A DNA stretch of 35,767 nt from Bacteroidia bacterium (lineage in GTDB: Bacteria; Bacteroidota; Ignavibacteria; UBA10030): assembly GCA_022180565.1 (NCBI GenBank), contig BQML01000027.1:1-35767 (forward strand), written 5' to 3'. Below are positions 17,228 through 35,767 of the stretch, piece by piece. The position numbers were made by a program, and so were the translations under genes. Below the pieces are notes generated by a model. It saw only the letters and a program-made list of their open reading frames with translations. It was not told the DNA's origin and searched no databases. Positions within the stretch are counted from its first letter, which is position 1; the number at the start of each line of letters is the position of its first letter.

Positions 17228-17797
17228 ATGATAACCATCAAGCGTTTTGGCCCGATCACTCTCTGTCTTCTGATTGCCGTTATTCCGGGGAAGAGCCAGT
17301 TAACCTCTGTACCGTGGTCTTCATTTTCGCAGGCTCTGACGCTCTCGGGTGGGCCCGGAACACAGGTTGCTTCGTTCCTCGGAGCTTCGGCCATTGGCGG
17401 CACATCGGGGGGAGCCCTAGGACTCACCGGGGGGTTTCTCGCCGGGATTTCGCGGCAGTCTGCGGTAACGGGCATGGAAGGAAGGTCGTCGCTTCCGCTC
17501 ACATACGAACTCTACCAGAATTACCCCAATCCTTTCAATCCTGTCACGACGATTTCGTACGACCTTCCTGCGCTCAGCCGCGTGACGATTCATGTGTTCA
17601 ACATTGTCGGTCAGCACATAGCGACTCTGGTTGATCAGGAACAGCCTGCGGGGCGGTACAGGTTGGTCTGGAATGGCAGAACGGACCGTGGCATTCCCGC
17701 AGCCTCGGGGGTATATTTCTATCGCATTGCCGCGAGCGAGAGGTTGGGAAAAGAGCGTCAATTCTCTTCGACCCGGAAGCTTCTTTTTCTGAAATAA
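17228..17797 (+). CDS. Small secreted protein with type IX sorting domain
   Basis: 189 residues. The N-terminus is a signal peptide (LCLLIAVIPGKSQ). A short Gly/Ser/Ala-rich segment of about 65 residues with no recognisable domain follows. The C-terminal 85 residues or so form a FlgD-Ig-like / type IX secretion (Por) sorting domain: YELYQNYPNPFNPVTTISYD, then VTIHVFNIVGQ, GRYRLVWNGRTDRG, ASGVYFYRIAA and a Lys/Arg-rich end (TRKLLFLK). In FCB bacteria this domain directs passage through the outer membrane by the type IX system and often attachment to the surface (established knowledge). The cargo region is unusually small. It follows the fibre-like gene by 3 bases, so the pair probably works together. 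Confidence 0.87.
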   Translation: MITIKRFGPITLCLLIAVIPGKSQLTSVPWSSFSQALTLSGGPGTQVASFLGASAIGGTSGGALGLTGGFLAGISRQSAVTGMEGRSSLPLTYELYQNYPNPFNPVTTISYDLPALSRVTIHVFNIVGQHIATLVDQEQPAGRYRLVWNGRTDRGIPAASGVYFYRIAASERLGKERQFSSTRKLLFLK

Positions 17798-30607: not shown

Positions 30608-31326
30608 ACCGGTATCTTGCGTTGGCCGGCGTTGGATCCCGCCGCAAGAACGACGAACTGATTCTCTCGGGAGCTGTTCGTGTCAATGGCACGATTGTCA
30701 AGGAGCTTGGATCGAAGGTTGATCCGGGCCGGGATCGTGTCACCGTCAACGGCAAGCCGGTCCAGGTTGCTCACCGTTTCCTGTACATCCTCCTGAACAA
30801 GCCCAAAGACTGCATTACGACGGTTCGAGACGAGCGAGGGAGAACCACCGTCATGGATCTGGTGCGCGTCCGGGATCGTGTGTATCCGGTTGGCCGGCTC
30901 GATCGGGATACCACAGGCATCCTGCTGCTGACCAACGATGGCGACCTCGCACACGGCCTCACCCATCCGAGTTCTGAGATTGAAAAGATGTACCGCGCTC
31001 GCCTCGAGAAAGGCATCACGGACGACGATCTTCAACGGCTGAGAAGGGGAGTCCGTTTGTCCGATGGCCCCGCGAAAGCGCGCGAAGCGGCTGTGATTCC
31101 GGGGACCCGGAGGAAAGAGGTCTTTCTGACGGTGCACGAAGGGCGAAATCATCTGGTCAAACGAATGTTTGACAAGCTCGGATATACGATCCGCCAGCTG
31201 GAGCGTGTAGGATTCGCAGGTCTCACGACGGAGGGAGTGGCGAGGGGCAAGTGGAGATTTCTCCGGCAATCAGAGGTGCAGCACTTGAAATCACTTATGG
31301 ACAAAAAAAAACATACGCATGCCTGA
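30553..31326 (+). CDS. rluB: Ribosomal large subunit pseudouridine synthase (RluB/RsuA family)
   Basis: 257 residues. An S4 RNA-binding domain ([21 protein letters not shown]...VRVNG) is followed by the RsuA/RluB/E/F catalytic domain with the active-site motif [18 protein letters not shown] (catalytic D117) and [15 protein letters not shown]. It converts a uridine of 23S rRNA to pseudouridine; RluB-like placement next to scpB is common in bacteria. ATG 30553 lies inside the end of scpB, a 55-base overlap; no later ATG exists before the S4 domain. A run of nine A precedes the stop. Confidence 0.93.
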
Positions 31327-32851
31327 GATGACCGATCACAATGTGCAACGGGAGCAACAGGAAGACCTGAACGTACTCATGCTCAGGCGAAGGGAAGAGC
31401 TGGATGAGCTGAAGAAGCTGGGAATCAATCCGTATCCGCCGTTGTATGAACGAACGGATTTCTCACGGGACATTCTCCAATCCTTTTCGGACGATGCACC
31501 TCCGCGGAACGTCGGCATTGCAGGGAGGATCATGACGATCAGGCGCATGGGGAAGGCCTCGTTCTTCCACCTGCAGGATTCCCAGGGGCGGATTCAGGTG
31601 TATTTGAAAAAAGACGACCTTGGCGGGGTATACGACGCATTCCGACTGATGGACATAGGGGATATTGTCGGCGTCAAGGGCTTTGTCTTCAGGACAAAGA
31701 TGGGCGAAGTTTCGGTTCACGCCAGGGAGCTTACCCTCCTGGCCAAGTCCCTTCGTCCCCTCCCCGTCGCGAAAGAGAAGACGGATGAAAAGGGAAACAG
31801 GATTGTTTTTGATCCCTTCTCTGACAAGGAACTCCGCTATCGCCAAAGATATGTCGATCTGATCGTCAATCCCGAAGTGCGTGACGTGTTCGTTCGCCGC
31901 GCAACGGCCATTCGGACCATACGGAAGTTTCTCGACGAACGGAACTATCTCGAAGTGGAAACACCCGTTCTTCAACCGCTGTATGGAGGCGCCTCGGCGC
32001 GGCCGTTCATCACCCATCATAATGCCCTCGACGTCGACTTGTATCTCAGGATCGCAGATGAACTCTATCTGAAGCGATTGATCGTCGGGGGATTCGACGG
32101 CGTATATGAGATTGCGAAGGACTTCCGGAATGAAGGGATGGACCGGTCGCACAATCCGGAGTTTACGATGCTCGAACTCTATGTGGCGTATCGCGATTAT
32201 CAGTGGATGATGGATCTGACGGAAGAGCTGATTGCCCGGGTGTGTATCGCGGTGAACGGCAGCCTTGCACTTCCGGATGCGAAAAAGCCCATTGACATGG
32301 GGAGACCATGGAAGCGGATGACGATGTTTGGAGCCATCAAGCAGTTCACGGGGATGGACCTGCGAGGGAAGAATGAAGAGGAGCTGCGCGCCGCGGCTAA
32401 AACACTTCATGTGGAGATCGAACCCTCGGAAGGTTCCGGGGCCATCATCGACGACATCTTCAGCACGCGCGTCGAGCCGCACCTGATCAATCCCACATTC
32501 ATTACCGACTATCCGCGGGAGATGTCTCCGCTGGCAAAACAGCACCGGTCGGAAGCGGGCCTTGTAGAACGATTCGAGCTGATCATCAACGGCCAAGAGA
32601 TTTGCAACGCCTTTTCCGAGCTCAACGACCCGCTCGACCAACGGCAGAGATTCGAAGATCAGGCGCGCTTGCGTGCGCGGGGTGACGAAGAGGCCCAGAT
32701 GCTCGACGAGGACTACCTGCGTGCCCTCGAGTACGGTATGCCGCCAACGGCCGGGCTCGGCGTGGGAATCGACCGTTTGGTTATGCTCTTGACCGGAAAA
32801 GATTCGATTCGTGACGTGATCCTGTTTCCTCAAATGAAGCCCGAGAAATGA
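31319..32851 (+). CDS. lysS: Lysyl-tRNA synthetase (class II)
   Basis: 510 residues, the usual length. An OB-fold anticodon-binding domain ([23 protein letters not shown]) precedes the class II core with motif 1 near [15 protein letters not shown], motif 2 [20 protein letters not shown] and motif 3 [15 protein letters not shown]. Starts are ATG 31319, overlapping the rluB end by eight bases, or ATG 31328. It attaches lysine to tRNA-Lys. Confidence 0.97.
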
Positions 32852-32890: not shown

Positions 32891-32930
32891 AATGCGCAAG
32901 GCGCGCGATGACAACCGGCCGAGGATGCTC

Positions 32931-33623
32931 ATGAGAATGCCGCGAGTGCATTTGCCGCATCGGGGAAAGCAGGCCCTTGCCGTTTCTGCCGGTTTTTTCC
33001 TGGCGATCGTGGCCGCGGGGCCTCTCTGCAATGAATCGCTTCCCCCCTACATCAATCCACGAGACGTTTTTTCCGGTACCGTACAGGGTGCGTATGTCCT
33101 TACGATGAGCGATAATTCGGTGAAGATTTATCTGAATGTGACCAATCGGTACGACGAAACACTTGAAGGTCGGGCGCTCCTGAATGGGGAAATGGAGATC
33201 AGTTTGGCGGGGAATCCGATGATCAGCAAGACATTCTCCATCTCCAGTTCGAACCTGTTGACATCGAGAAACTATAACCCGACGACCGGCTTCCTTCGAA
33301 TCGATCCCGGAGAGACGATCCGGTTTGGAGTGAGCTGGAACCTTGTGGCAGATAATGGAACAGACCTTCGAACCGGAGTATTTCGGTACTGGGAGGATAC
33401 TGAATGCGCCGCCCGGTGCGTTGCGGAAGAAGAAGTCTTTGTGATCCGGGGTTCCGTGGACATTTTCGAGCAAACGAACACCGTCGTGGCCGACCCCGCA
33501 TTGTTCAGTCTGTGTCACGTGAGCAATTACGTCGAACCCCGCTTCTGTCCGCCTGTGGACTACACCATTCCATGCTCCAAACGGGCTGTGACCACGGGGC
33601 AGGGAGCAAAGCGGTGTCCATGA
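32931..33623 (+). CDS. Secreted unknown protein, cysteine-containing
   Basis: 230 residues, not recognised. ATG 32931 has GAGG at a proper distance and leads into a signal peptide (basic start, then ALAVSAGFFLAIVAAG). An in-frame ATG at 32892 would add 13 charged residues. A cysteine follows soon after (GPLCNES), but residue -1 is Leu, so a lipobox is unlikely. The mature part appears all-beta and carries seven Cys, including a C-x3-C pair (ECAARC) and four in the last 40 residues, which suggests disulfide bonds in the periplasm or outside. Its TGA overlaps the ATG of the TonB-dependent receptor (ATGA), so the two are co-translated and probably work together. Confidence 0.8.
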   Translation: MRMPRVHLPHRGKQALAVSAGFFLAIVAAGPLCNESLPPYINPRDVFSGTVQGAYVLTMSDNSVKIYLNVTNRYDETLEGRALLNGEMEISLAGNPMISKTFSISSSNLLTSRNYNPTTGFLRIDPGETIRFGVSWNLVADNGTDLRTGVFRYWEDTECAARCVAEEEVFVIRGSVDIFEQTNTVVADPALFSLCHVSNYVEPRFCPPVDYTIPCSKRAVTTGQGAKRCP

Positions 33624-35767
33624 TGCACCGATTCGCGCGGAAGGACGCCATGAGGTCGTTCTGCACGTTGATGGCGGTTGTCACGCTTGCTTCGACGGGC
33701 AGCGGCCGTTCCTTCGGCACTCATGGAATCCTCGAAGGCCGCATTGTGGACAAGGGGACGGGTGAGCCGCTCGTGGCCGTCAATGTCTTTGTGCTTGAAA
33801 CAACCTATGGAGCCGCGTCCGACGCAGAAGGATATTATCAGATCAACAACATCCGGGCAGGGGTATACGATGTCCGATTCAGCATCATCGGCTACAAAAC
33901 GGTGGTGATGCGCAAAGTCACGATCCTTCCGGATTTGCGGACGCGCGTCGATATCCAAATGGAGCAGACCGCGATAGAGCTGGAGACGATCGAGGTCATT
34001 GCCCAAAAGCCGTTGATTCAGAGGGATCTCGCCTCCACGGCATACTCCATCGGTGAACTCAAGATTGAGAAACTCCCGGTGTCATCGTTCCGCGAAGTGG
34101 TCCTGCTTCAGCCGGGAACCACTCTTGAAGGAAACGTCAGAGGCGGGAAAACGAGCGAGGTGCTCTACATGGTGGACGGACTCCCTGTCCAAGACGTCAT
34201 TTCCGGAGGGCTTGGAGCAAACCTGCCGAGGAGTGCGATTACAGGGATGACCATTACAACCGGCGGATTCGAGGCCGAGTATGGCAACGCAATGTCCGGC
34301 GTTGTCAATGTGGTGACGAAAGGCGGAACGAACGAATCAATTCTGGCGGCACGGCTTGAACGGGATGACTGGTTGCCCGAAGCGTGGAATAAACAACAAG
34401 ACAGGATGATGGAGGTCGAACTTACGGCCGGCGGGCCGATCGTGCGGGATAGATTGTTCTACTTCGCTGCCAATACCGTAACGACGACCGATACGCGGTG
34501 GTGGCAGGATTTCGACAGGTATTTTCAATCCCCGGTGAGCAAGGAATTCTCAGGGTTCGGCAAGCTTGAGGCCCTTGTCGTCCGCGACATCCGTGCCTCC
34601 CTCCAGGGGTTCTATTCCATGCGTGATTGGAGAGACTACGAATTCAGCTGGAGGTTCAATCTCGATGGACTTCCGGCCCGAAGCAGACACGCATACCGTG
34701 TGGCCGGAACGGTCTCCCACACCCTCTCCGACCAGTCGTTCTATTCGTTGACCGGCAGCTTGTATTCGCTCCGGTCCCGCATAGGCGATGGGCCGAAGGA
34801 AACGATGGAGCTTACTCCGTACCAGTATGATTTTTTTTTGCGTTATGTTCTTACCGGGAAGCGCAACTGGTGGGCGGATACGCGCCAGACAGTGTACACG
34901 GCGAAAGGCGACTTCACGCATCATTTTCAAAGGATGCACCTCTTCAAAGTGGGATTCGAAGTCCATCAATACGATATTCTCTCCGATGTCGTCAAGTACG
35001 AACCCCAGACGACGTACTTTGGAAAGCCGATCGAAACCGCGCCGTTCCTGAGCTTCACCAACCGTTACAGTTATCAACCCGTTGTTGCCAGCCTGTATGT
35101 GCAGGATAAAATCGAGCTTGTCCGGGATGGATCGAACATTAGTCTCGGCGTTCGATGGGATTTTCTCGATCCCGAAGCCGAACGGCCGATCGTTGAGTTC
35201 GTTCCTGTCACGCCGTCCGAGTACCGGCAGGAAATTGTGGGGAAACAACGTTCAAAGAAGAAATCCCAGTGGAGTCCAAGGGTGTCCGCCGCACTCCCCT
35301 TCGGCCTCTCCAGCTTCTTCTTTCTTAATTTCGGGCACTATTTTCAGTTCCCGCTTTTCGATTATCTGTACTCCGGGATTAATCCGGCGCAGCTGAGAGG
35401 GGCCGCACGCAGTGTTCTGACGGGGAACCCCGACCTGGAACCCGAGCGTGTCGTTTCCTGGGAAATGGGAGTCAAACACGCCCTGAATCCCGGCGTGGTG
35501 GCCTCGTTCACGTTCTTCCACAAGAGCTTTAAGAATCAGATTGACTCCAAGACCCTGATTCCTTTCGACAGCAAATCGGCCGGCGACTATGGATTTGCGT
35601 CTTACGTGAATAACGCTGAGGCAAGTTCCACCGGATTTGAAGTTGTTCTGAACAGAGAACGGGATGAACGATTGACGGGATCCATCTCGTATTCGTACAT
35701 GGTCACAGAGGGGGTAAGTGAATCAGCGGCGCAAGGCATTCAGTATGCACAATGGGGATTCCCGGTC
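33620..35767 (+). CDS. TonB-dependent receptor with carboxypeptidase-like N-terminal domain (3' end missing)
   Basis: An outer-membrane active transporter; 716 codons are open to the right edge, and the end of the barrel is missing. A signal sequence (about residues 10-30) is followed by a carboxypeptidase-regulatory-like domain (GILEGRIVDKGTGEPLVAVNVFV...YYQINNIRAGVYDVRFSIIGY). A TonB-box-like segment (ELETIEVIA) comes next, then the plug (SEVLYMVDGLPV, GGFEAEYGNAMSGVVNVVTKGG). Barrel strands with the conserved NPDLEPERVVSWEMGV and VNNAEASSTGFEVVL follow. No SusD partner is next to it, so a polysaccharide-type SusCD system is not shown. Substrate unknown. Starts ATG 33620 or 33623. Confidence 0.93.
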   Translation, partial: MMHRFARKDAMRSFCTLMAVVTLASTGSGRSFGTHGILEGRIVDKGTGEPLVAVNVFVLETTYGAASDAEGYYQINNIRAGVYDVRFSIIGYKTVVMRKVTILPDLRTRVDIQMEQTAIELETIEVIAQKPLIQRDLASTAYSIGELKIEKLPVSSFREVVLLQPGTTLEGNVRGGKTSEVLYMVDGLPVQDVISGGLGANLPRSAITGMTITTGGFEAEYGNAMSGVVNVVTKGGTNESILAARLERDDWLPEAWNKQQDRMMEVELTAGGPIVRDRLFYFAANTVTTTDTRWWQDFDRYFQSPVSKEFSGFGKLEALVVRDIRASLQGFYSMRDWRDYEFSWRFNLDGLPARSRHAYRVAGTVSHTLSDQSFYSLTGSLYSLRSRIGDGPKETMELTPYQYDFFLRYVLTGKRNWWADTRQTVYTAKGDFTHHFQRMHLFKVGFEVHQYDILSDVVKYEPQTTYFGKPIETAPFLSFTNRYSYQPVVASLYVQDKIELVRDGSNISLGVRWDFLDPEAERPIVEFVPVTPSEYRQEIVGKQRSKKKSQWSPRVSAALPFGLSSFFFLNFGHYFQFPLFDYLYSGINPAQLRGAARSVLTGNPDLEPERVVSWEMGVKHALNPGVVASFTFFHKSFKNQIDSKTLIPFDSKSAGDYGFASYVNNAEASSTGFEVVLNRERDERLTGSISYSYMVTEGVSESAAQGIQYAQWGFPV

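Follow-up and report, generated by a model that had tools for sequence, protein, structure and literature searches.

A small predicted lipoprotein family that accompanies one subfamily of TonB-dependent receptors in Ignavibacteria and in a second phylum

The stretch of DNA analysed here, hereafter the window, is 35,767 nucleotides long, comes from a genome of the Ignavibacteria and closes with two overlapping genes on the forward strand, hereafter labelled S and T, which encode a small predicted lipoprotein and a TonB-dependent receptor. On sequence grounds, S represents a real protein family and its pairing with T is not chance. Because this family is an unnamed, non-SusD-like and nearly obligate genomic partner of a single T subfamily, S very probably serves these receptors as an accessory protein, and by analogy with known transporters it most likely helps T to catch its cargo. 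The features of the locus are as follows:

31319..32851, + strand: class II aminoacyl-tRNA synthetase, a neighbour outside the pair, directly upstream of S–T (PF00152; conserved neighbourhood)
32892-33623, + strand: S open frame in its longest form (ORF)
32931..33623, + strand: S, small predicted lipoprotein (ORF; 61-row family; GAGG upstream of ATG 32931)
32931..33026, + strand: predicted signal peptide of S, ending just before Cys46 (hydrophobic stretch ahead of an invariant Cys)
33027..33059, + strand: conserved tail of S, Cys46–Pro56, CxExLPxYxxP (identity among family members)
33069..33521, + strand: predicted BsuPI-like Ig beta-sandwich of S, residues 60–210 of the 243-residue frame (predicted model and VIA)
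33620..33623, + strand: ATGA in which the stop of S and the start of T overlap (sequence)
33620..35767, + strand: T, TonB-dependent receptor, 716 residues inside the window, open at the 3′ end (ORF, Pfam)
33734..33994, + strand: CarboxypepD_reg-like N-terminal domain of T (PF13715, E 2.9e-19)
34022..34303, + strand: plug domain of T (PF07715, E 1e-5)
34478..35713, + strand: part of the beta-barrel of T (TonB_dep_Rec_b-barrel, PF00593, E 1.7e-25)

The longest frame of S encodes 243 residues, and this numbering is used throughout. The best-placed start is ATG 32931, with GAGG at 32921-32924, six bases upstream, which gives a protein of 230 residues. Its stop codon (TGA, 33621-33623) and the receptor's start codon (ATG from 33620) overlap, confirming the ATGA overlap reported in a first-pass annotation of the window and placing it at 33620-33623. 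The synthetase upstream is, we presume, of the lysyl type. At the other end of the locus, the window's final 282 bases (35486-35767) are found again as positions 1-282 of another contig of this genome, C5 (locus L003), with one mismatch, Ile to Ser, so the two contigs very probably adjoin within the receptor gene. The T reading frame continues into C5 and stops at base 699. The genes that follow, which that annotation had singled out for a look, encode an S41 protease, a DUF3108 protein, a hexapeptide-repeat protein and a metallo-beta-lactamase-fold protein.

A search of 61 related genomes with the single S sequence recovers relatives in 34, and one with a 38-member profile does so in 39; a closer alignment (A3), used as the query of a contig search, returned 11 loci. 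Among the named contigs, those bearing S belong to Ignavibacteriales, Ignavibacteriae, Ignavibacteria, Bacteroidetes or Chlorobi, with one KSB1 record. The earlier description of S as unrecognised stands: the window protein has no match in Pfam or NCBIfam, and across the 38 members no Pfam family is matched consistently at E values up to 5. Scattered matches of single members (best 0.0007, to an intron maturase) were taken as chance, as was DUF5067, matched by two of the 38 at 0.0026, although the latter may hint at the same Ig-like fold as the one predicted below. Against PDB sequences, S gives one match, a zinc finger, at the chance level of E 0.71. The family is not named in the literature searched, mostly from outside the subscription journals; a preprint on lid families, bioRxiv 2023.03.17.533168, may already describe an Ig-like lid.

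A T profile, built from 25 receptors of S loci and run on the same 61 genomes, delimits the receptor subfamily by a clean gap: its members score 939-1536 bits and other TonB receptors at most 434, while a 417-bit piece on C5 is simply where the receptor of the window ends. Both S and T are present in 38 genomes, S only in one, T only in none and neither in 22. The genome with S only, G022, is 55% complete and carries S at a contig end. The small protein therefore does not occur mostly without a receptor, the outcome that the first-pass annotation had set down as fatal to its proposal. Across 294 genomes of the class, T is found in 45 and S in the same 45; a 46th S match, in G202 (E 4e-4, 38 positions within a 409-residue frame), was dropped as a match to the signal peptide. 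A sample of 395 genomes from the phylum gives an S match in 14, all of them in the window's order except G202. The two genes are also close: for 41 of 48 T matches there is an S on the same strand no more than 500 bases away, upstream in 22 and downstream in 19; S is farther off on the contig in six of the others and absent from the contig in one. A gap or overlap of at most 30 bases is possible in 25 of 32 S–T and 18 of 25 T–S pairs. Counted from the S side, 8 of 74 matches are on contigs without T and another 5 are more than 2.5 kb from it, though the contigs concerned are mostly short or break off at that point.

The same pairing is seen in a second phylum, that of the KSB1 record, in which we searched 82 genomes. 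S is found at E 0.001 in 16 of them, and 17 of the 19 T matches above 900 bits have S alongside, the surroundings of all 19 having been inspected. The two exceptions are G667, with T on a 7 kb contig lacking S, and G660, in which T is truncated at the edge of its contig while S is near the end of another; a further receptor, in G655, is split across two contigs and has the S match beside its larger piece. These counts, with those for the class, show the pair to be conserved beyond the window. In many genomes, the pair occupies one recurrent spot, between the gene for a class II aminoacyl-tRNA synthetase upstream and that for the S41 protease downstream, and such a conserved housekeeping position favours a reading in which S and T are neighbours through inherited gene order alone, with no joint function. 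We hold this to be very improbable, because the pair is found at unrelated spots in two phyla; the pairing also comes in both orders, and no genome of the 61 lacking S has T.

A lipoprotein-assisted TonB transporter is, by analogy, the most economical reading of the pair. T has some features of such lidded transporters: a plug, a barrel and a partner gene conserved beside the receptor gene. On balance we lean towards a mechanism in which S, made together with T, would be lipid-anchored in the outer membrane via Cys46 and would dock on T from the cell surface, acting like BtuG or XusB. The tail CxExLPxYxxP would serve as docking segment and hinge, and the fast-evolving BsuPI-like Ig domain would contact cargo or gate entry, after which T would take the cargo in, powered by TonB; where T has several S genes, these might offset the small size of S. 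Lipidation, surface exposure, docking and cargo contact are what we infer here, from the observed genomic pairing, the family itself, the invariant Cys with its tail, the predicted fold and the co-divergence with T.

In the family alignment, which comprises 61 rows from related genomes, the Cys46 that follows the signal peptide is invariant in all 59 rows that reach the site, and among these E48 is kept in 56, L50 in 58 and P51 in 59. The mean pairwise identity of the tail, taken as the eleven residues from Cys46, is 59%, versus 28% over residues 60–210. The predicted signal peptide and the seven cysteines counted in the 243-residue frame (C46, C172, C176, C208, C219, C228 and C242) agree with the initial view of S as a secreted, Cys-containing protein, and a disulfide is plausible because C172 and C219 are both present in 47 of the 61 rows. 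In the window protein, the residue before Cys46 is Leu, which is unusual for a lipobox; most rows have S, A, G or P there.

Ig-like folds occur in periplasmic proteins too, and this counts for a different reading, in which S faces the periplasm and aids T from inside as a carrier, assembly or gating factor. The tail is also no strong match to known surface-export signals: those described are C-X-K-(D/E)2-X, SDDDD and SDDFE (PMC5080379), and the S tail is poorer in acidic residues, with one or two after the Cys in most rows. We consider a periplasmic S quite unlikely, since a conserved T with a fast-evolving S is more usual for exposed partners and since the lipoprotein beside a sister group of receptors, described below, looks to be of the propeller type, whose known representatives as partners are on the surface (PMC10404256, PMC13142918). 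For the periplasmic carrier that the first-pass annotation had offered as one option, nothing was found in its favour.

The predicted model of S, with a mean pLDDT of 85 and at least 92 in each ten-residue block of 61-220, is an all-beta sandwich with a single Ig-like domain of ~150 residues. Foldseek gives no match in the PDB at E ≤ 0.001. By VIA, the closest structure and the best among the 50 matches listed is BsuPI (3isy; Z 8.9, rmsd 3.3, 109 residues), followed among the same 50 by transglutaminase and other Ig-like domains at Z ≤ 7.6; we base the BsuPI likeness on VIA, and Z values of this size denote a fold class, not kinship. BsuPI, a Bacillus intracellular proteinase inhibitor according to its entry title, resembles S in fold only: the 38 S members give no sequence-profile match to it, and S has a signal peptide and adjoins a TonB receptor.

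SusC/SusD and SusE resemble S–T in that a TonB receptor and a lipoprotein share an operon. SusD has a helical, TPR-based fold, unlike the all-beta model of S, and the lack of any match to the SusD family in Pfam among the 38 members, or in Pfam and NCBIfam for the window protein, upholds the earlier statement that the partner is not SusD-like; a structure prediction for the small protein alone, proposed at that time, thus yields an Ig-like beta-sandwich and not a SusD. SusE and SusF are chains of Ig-like and starch-binding domains. The SusE Pfam profile matches none of the 38 S members, yet the fold class of S overlaps SusE, because SusE also has Ig-like parts and the S model shows one Ig-like domain. 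Structures of SusD, SusE, HmuY and BtuH are absent among the 50 VIA matches listed, an absence that says nothing against them. The suggestion of a new type of accessory protein is partly supported, as far as an unnamed family and a nearly obligate partner of T are concerned.

T itself scores 64.5 bits against SusC/RagA, far below the cut-off of 368. Its structure model has a mean pLDDT of only 55, and we therefore left it out of further use. Among PDB sequences, its closest match is XusA (9gbc, PMC13142918; E 1.8e-16), with only the N-terminal domain and plug aligned. XusA and XusB take up xenosiderophores in Bacteroides, XusB being a DUF4374 protein whose seven-bladed propeller caps XusA (PMC13142918). 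As with S–T, a receptor with an N-terminal domain is combined with a lipoprotein partner, but the partner is a propeller instead of the Ig-like sandwich predicted for S. BtuG of the Bacteroides vitamin B12 system BtuB/BtuG is similarly a lipoprotein partner of a TonB receptor, and its post-Cys linker, which runs along receptor loops, is a proposed hinge (PMC10404256); the conserved S tail would be the counterpart of this linker. BtuG too is a seven-bladed propeller, whereas S is modelled as a ~150-residue beta-sandwich and matches no Pfam family. In genomic arrangement, S–T resembles the DUF4249 system, exemplified by the pair BT2172/BT2173, in which a TonB transporter subfamily is almost always beside one lipoprotein family (PMC11003636, citing bioRxiv 2023.03.17.533168). 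DUF4249 genes are present in S genomes too, that of the window included. S was considered as a DUF4249 protein (PF14054) and set aside: 0 of 38 members match, and a profile comparison gives 37%, confined to the signal peptide and start. A link of S to the Bacteroidota BAM canopy (PMC12611786) was likewise considered, with nothing in support among the sequences searched, which did not include BamA.

S evolves faster than T. Over 57 T–S pairs, T averages an identity of 0.48 and S one of 0.24, with S the lower of the two in 1596 of 1596 comparisons. Distances among T and among S correlate (r 0.79; 0 of 999 permutations as high), much of which is explained by shared descent. A stricter test of co-divergence uses genomes holding two T–S loci of different types. 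Between G043 and G048, every S has its closest counterpart in the S that goes with the same T type in the other genome; one other clear two-locus quartet agrees weakly, for a tally of 2 in agreement and 0 in disagreement; these few cases are suggestive only of matched S and T types. TbpA and TbpB show the same asymmetry, the surface lipoprotein TbpB evolving faster than the conserved receptor (PMC7857515). TbpB is unlike S in being two-lobed, with barrel and handle domains (PMC7857515), and no sequence relation between them was found.

S genes often occur in tandem: genome G003 has S-S-S-T-S-S-T, and in G016 a T is preceded by three S and one fragment. Divergent copies in tandem arrays per T, together with the small single domain predicted for S and a variability far above that of T, favour a reading in which S is a surface accessory of the SusE/SusF type that catches substrate near T in the style of TbpB, without forming a lid, its paralogues broadening the catch of each receptor. 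This we regard as somewhat unlikely: S and T are present in a near-perfect one-to-one manner, most genomes have one S per T and the S tail is conserved. The near-perfect co-presence and the conserved tail together suggest direct docking. Broken or fragmentary S copies are found at the ends of tandem arrays (L039 15073-15739, L068 10123-10371) and suggest that S genes turn over by birth and death.

In a tree of 81 receptors, built by a quick method without bootstrap and with a few long-branched rows, 16 further receptors of the second phylum form one clade without S (SH-aLRT 100). They score about 476-716 bits against the T profile. In eight of the 16 (L159-L165, L174), a different lipoprotein directly adjoins the receptor; the other eight have no such lipoprotein within about 2.8 kb on each side, or less at contig ends. 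In L159, the two genes overlap by four bases, and in L161 and L164 the lipoprotein is present in three tandem copies. It has a motif C[WF]xKQ..., a CarboxypepD_reg-like domain (E 6e-6 to 1e-11, below the Pfam cut-off in four of five) and a C-terminal half with a weak likeness to the LRP6 propeller (E 6e-4), so that, from its sequence, it probably bears a propeller. A profile comparison of S with this lipoprotein gives 7.5%, and we treat the two as unrelated.

We read this arrangement as a swap of lipoprotein partners on a common receptor stock, in either direction. A broader scheme, which we put forward tentatively and rate a little short of an even chance, is that one receptor lineage keeps its barrel and exchanges unrelated lipoprotein partners, the Ig-fold S and the CarboxypepD_reg plus propeller-like protein, both sometimes in tandem arrays and each docking via its own conserved post-Cys tail. 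If this were true, lipoprotein-assisted import would be a modular scheme reaching beyond Bacteroidia into Ignavibacteria-type bacteria and KSB1.

For S as a docked lipoprotein we thus count the shared occurrence and adjacency of the two genes, Cys46, the conserved tail, the faster divergence of S, the XusA match and the lipoprotein neighbour of the sister receptors. Against it we count the Leu before Cys46, the less acidic tail, the S copies away from T and the G667 receptor without S, as well as the size of the protein, one Ig domain being small for a full lid.

Accounts of TonB import aided by a lipoprotein come mainly from Bacteroides and its relatives, and one paper calls lipoprotein-capped transporters seemingly exclusive to Bacteroidetes (PMC10404256). 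The pairing of a TonB transporter subfamily with a non-SusD lipoprotein has precedents in DUF4249 proteins with BT2172, in BtuG and in XusB; the S family itself we call new. With it, the known partners would gain an unnamed family whose fold is smaller and of another kind and which almost always goes with a single receptor subfamily, both in lineages that have been little studied and in a second phylum. Since the sister receptors apparently use another partner, the S and T set provides a natural experiment in what a receptor needs from its lipoprotein partner, and the conserved S tail offers a short segment suited to mutation.

Several further observations concern the surroundings of these loci. 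Three S copies, taken as stray, adjoin TonB receptors outside the subfamily (G016:C102, G019:C142 and G027:C123; loci L035, L037 and L044). The receptor in G019 (L037) is followed by a DUF4249 gene, and that in G027 adjoins a gene of the same cluster (c38). The DUF4249 genes of the window's own genome are at G000:C9:40427-41266, G000:C8:72669-73010 and G000:C47:36892-37047, two over the cut-off and one under. A barrel protein of the PorV family (type IX secretion) is near S–T at 5 of 40 loci (L043, L045, L046, L067 and L073) and also in L158 (1014-2063), and near some S–T pairs it is accompanied by secreted proteins with sorting-type tails. Within the window, 17228-17797 encodes a secreted-looking protein of 189 residues that falls in cluster c4 with type IX sorting-tail proteins near other S–T loci; the representative of this cluster carries Por_Secre_tail.
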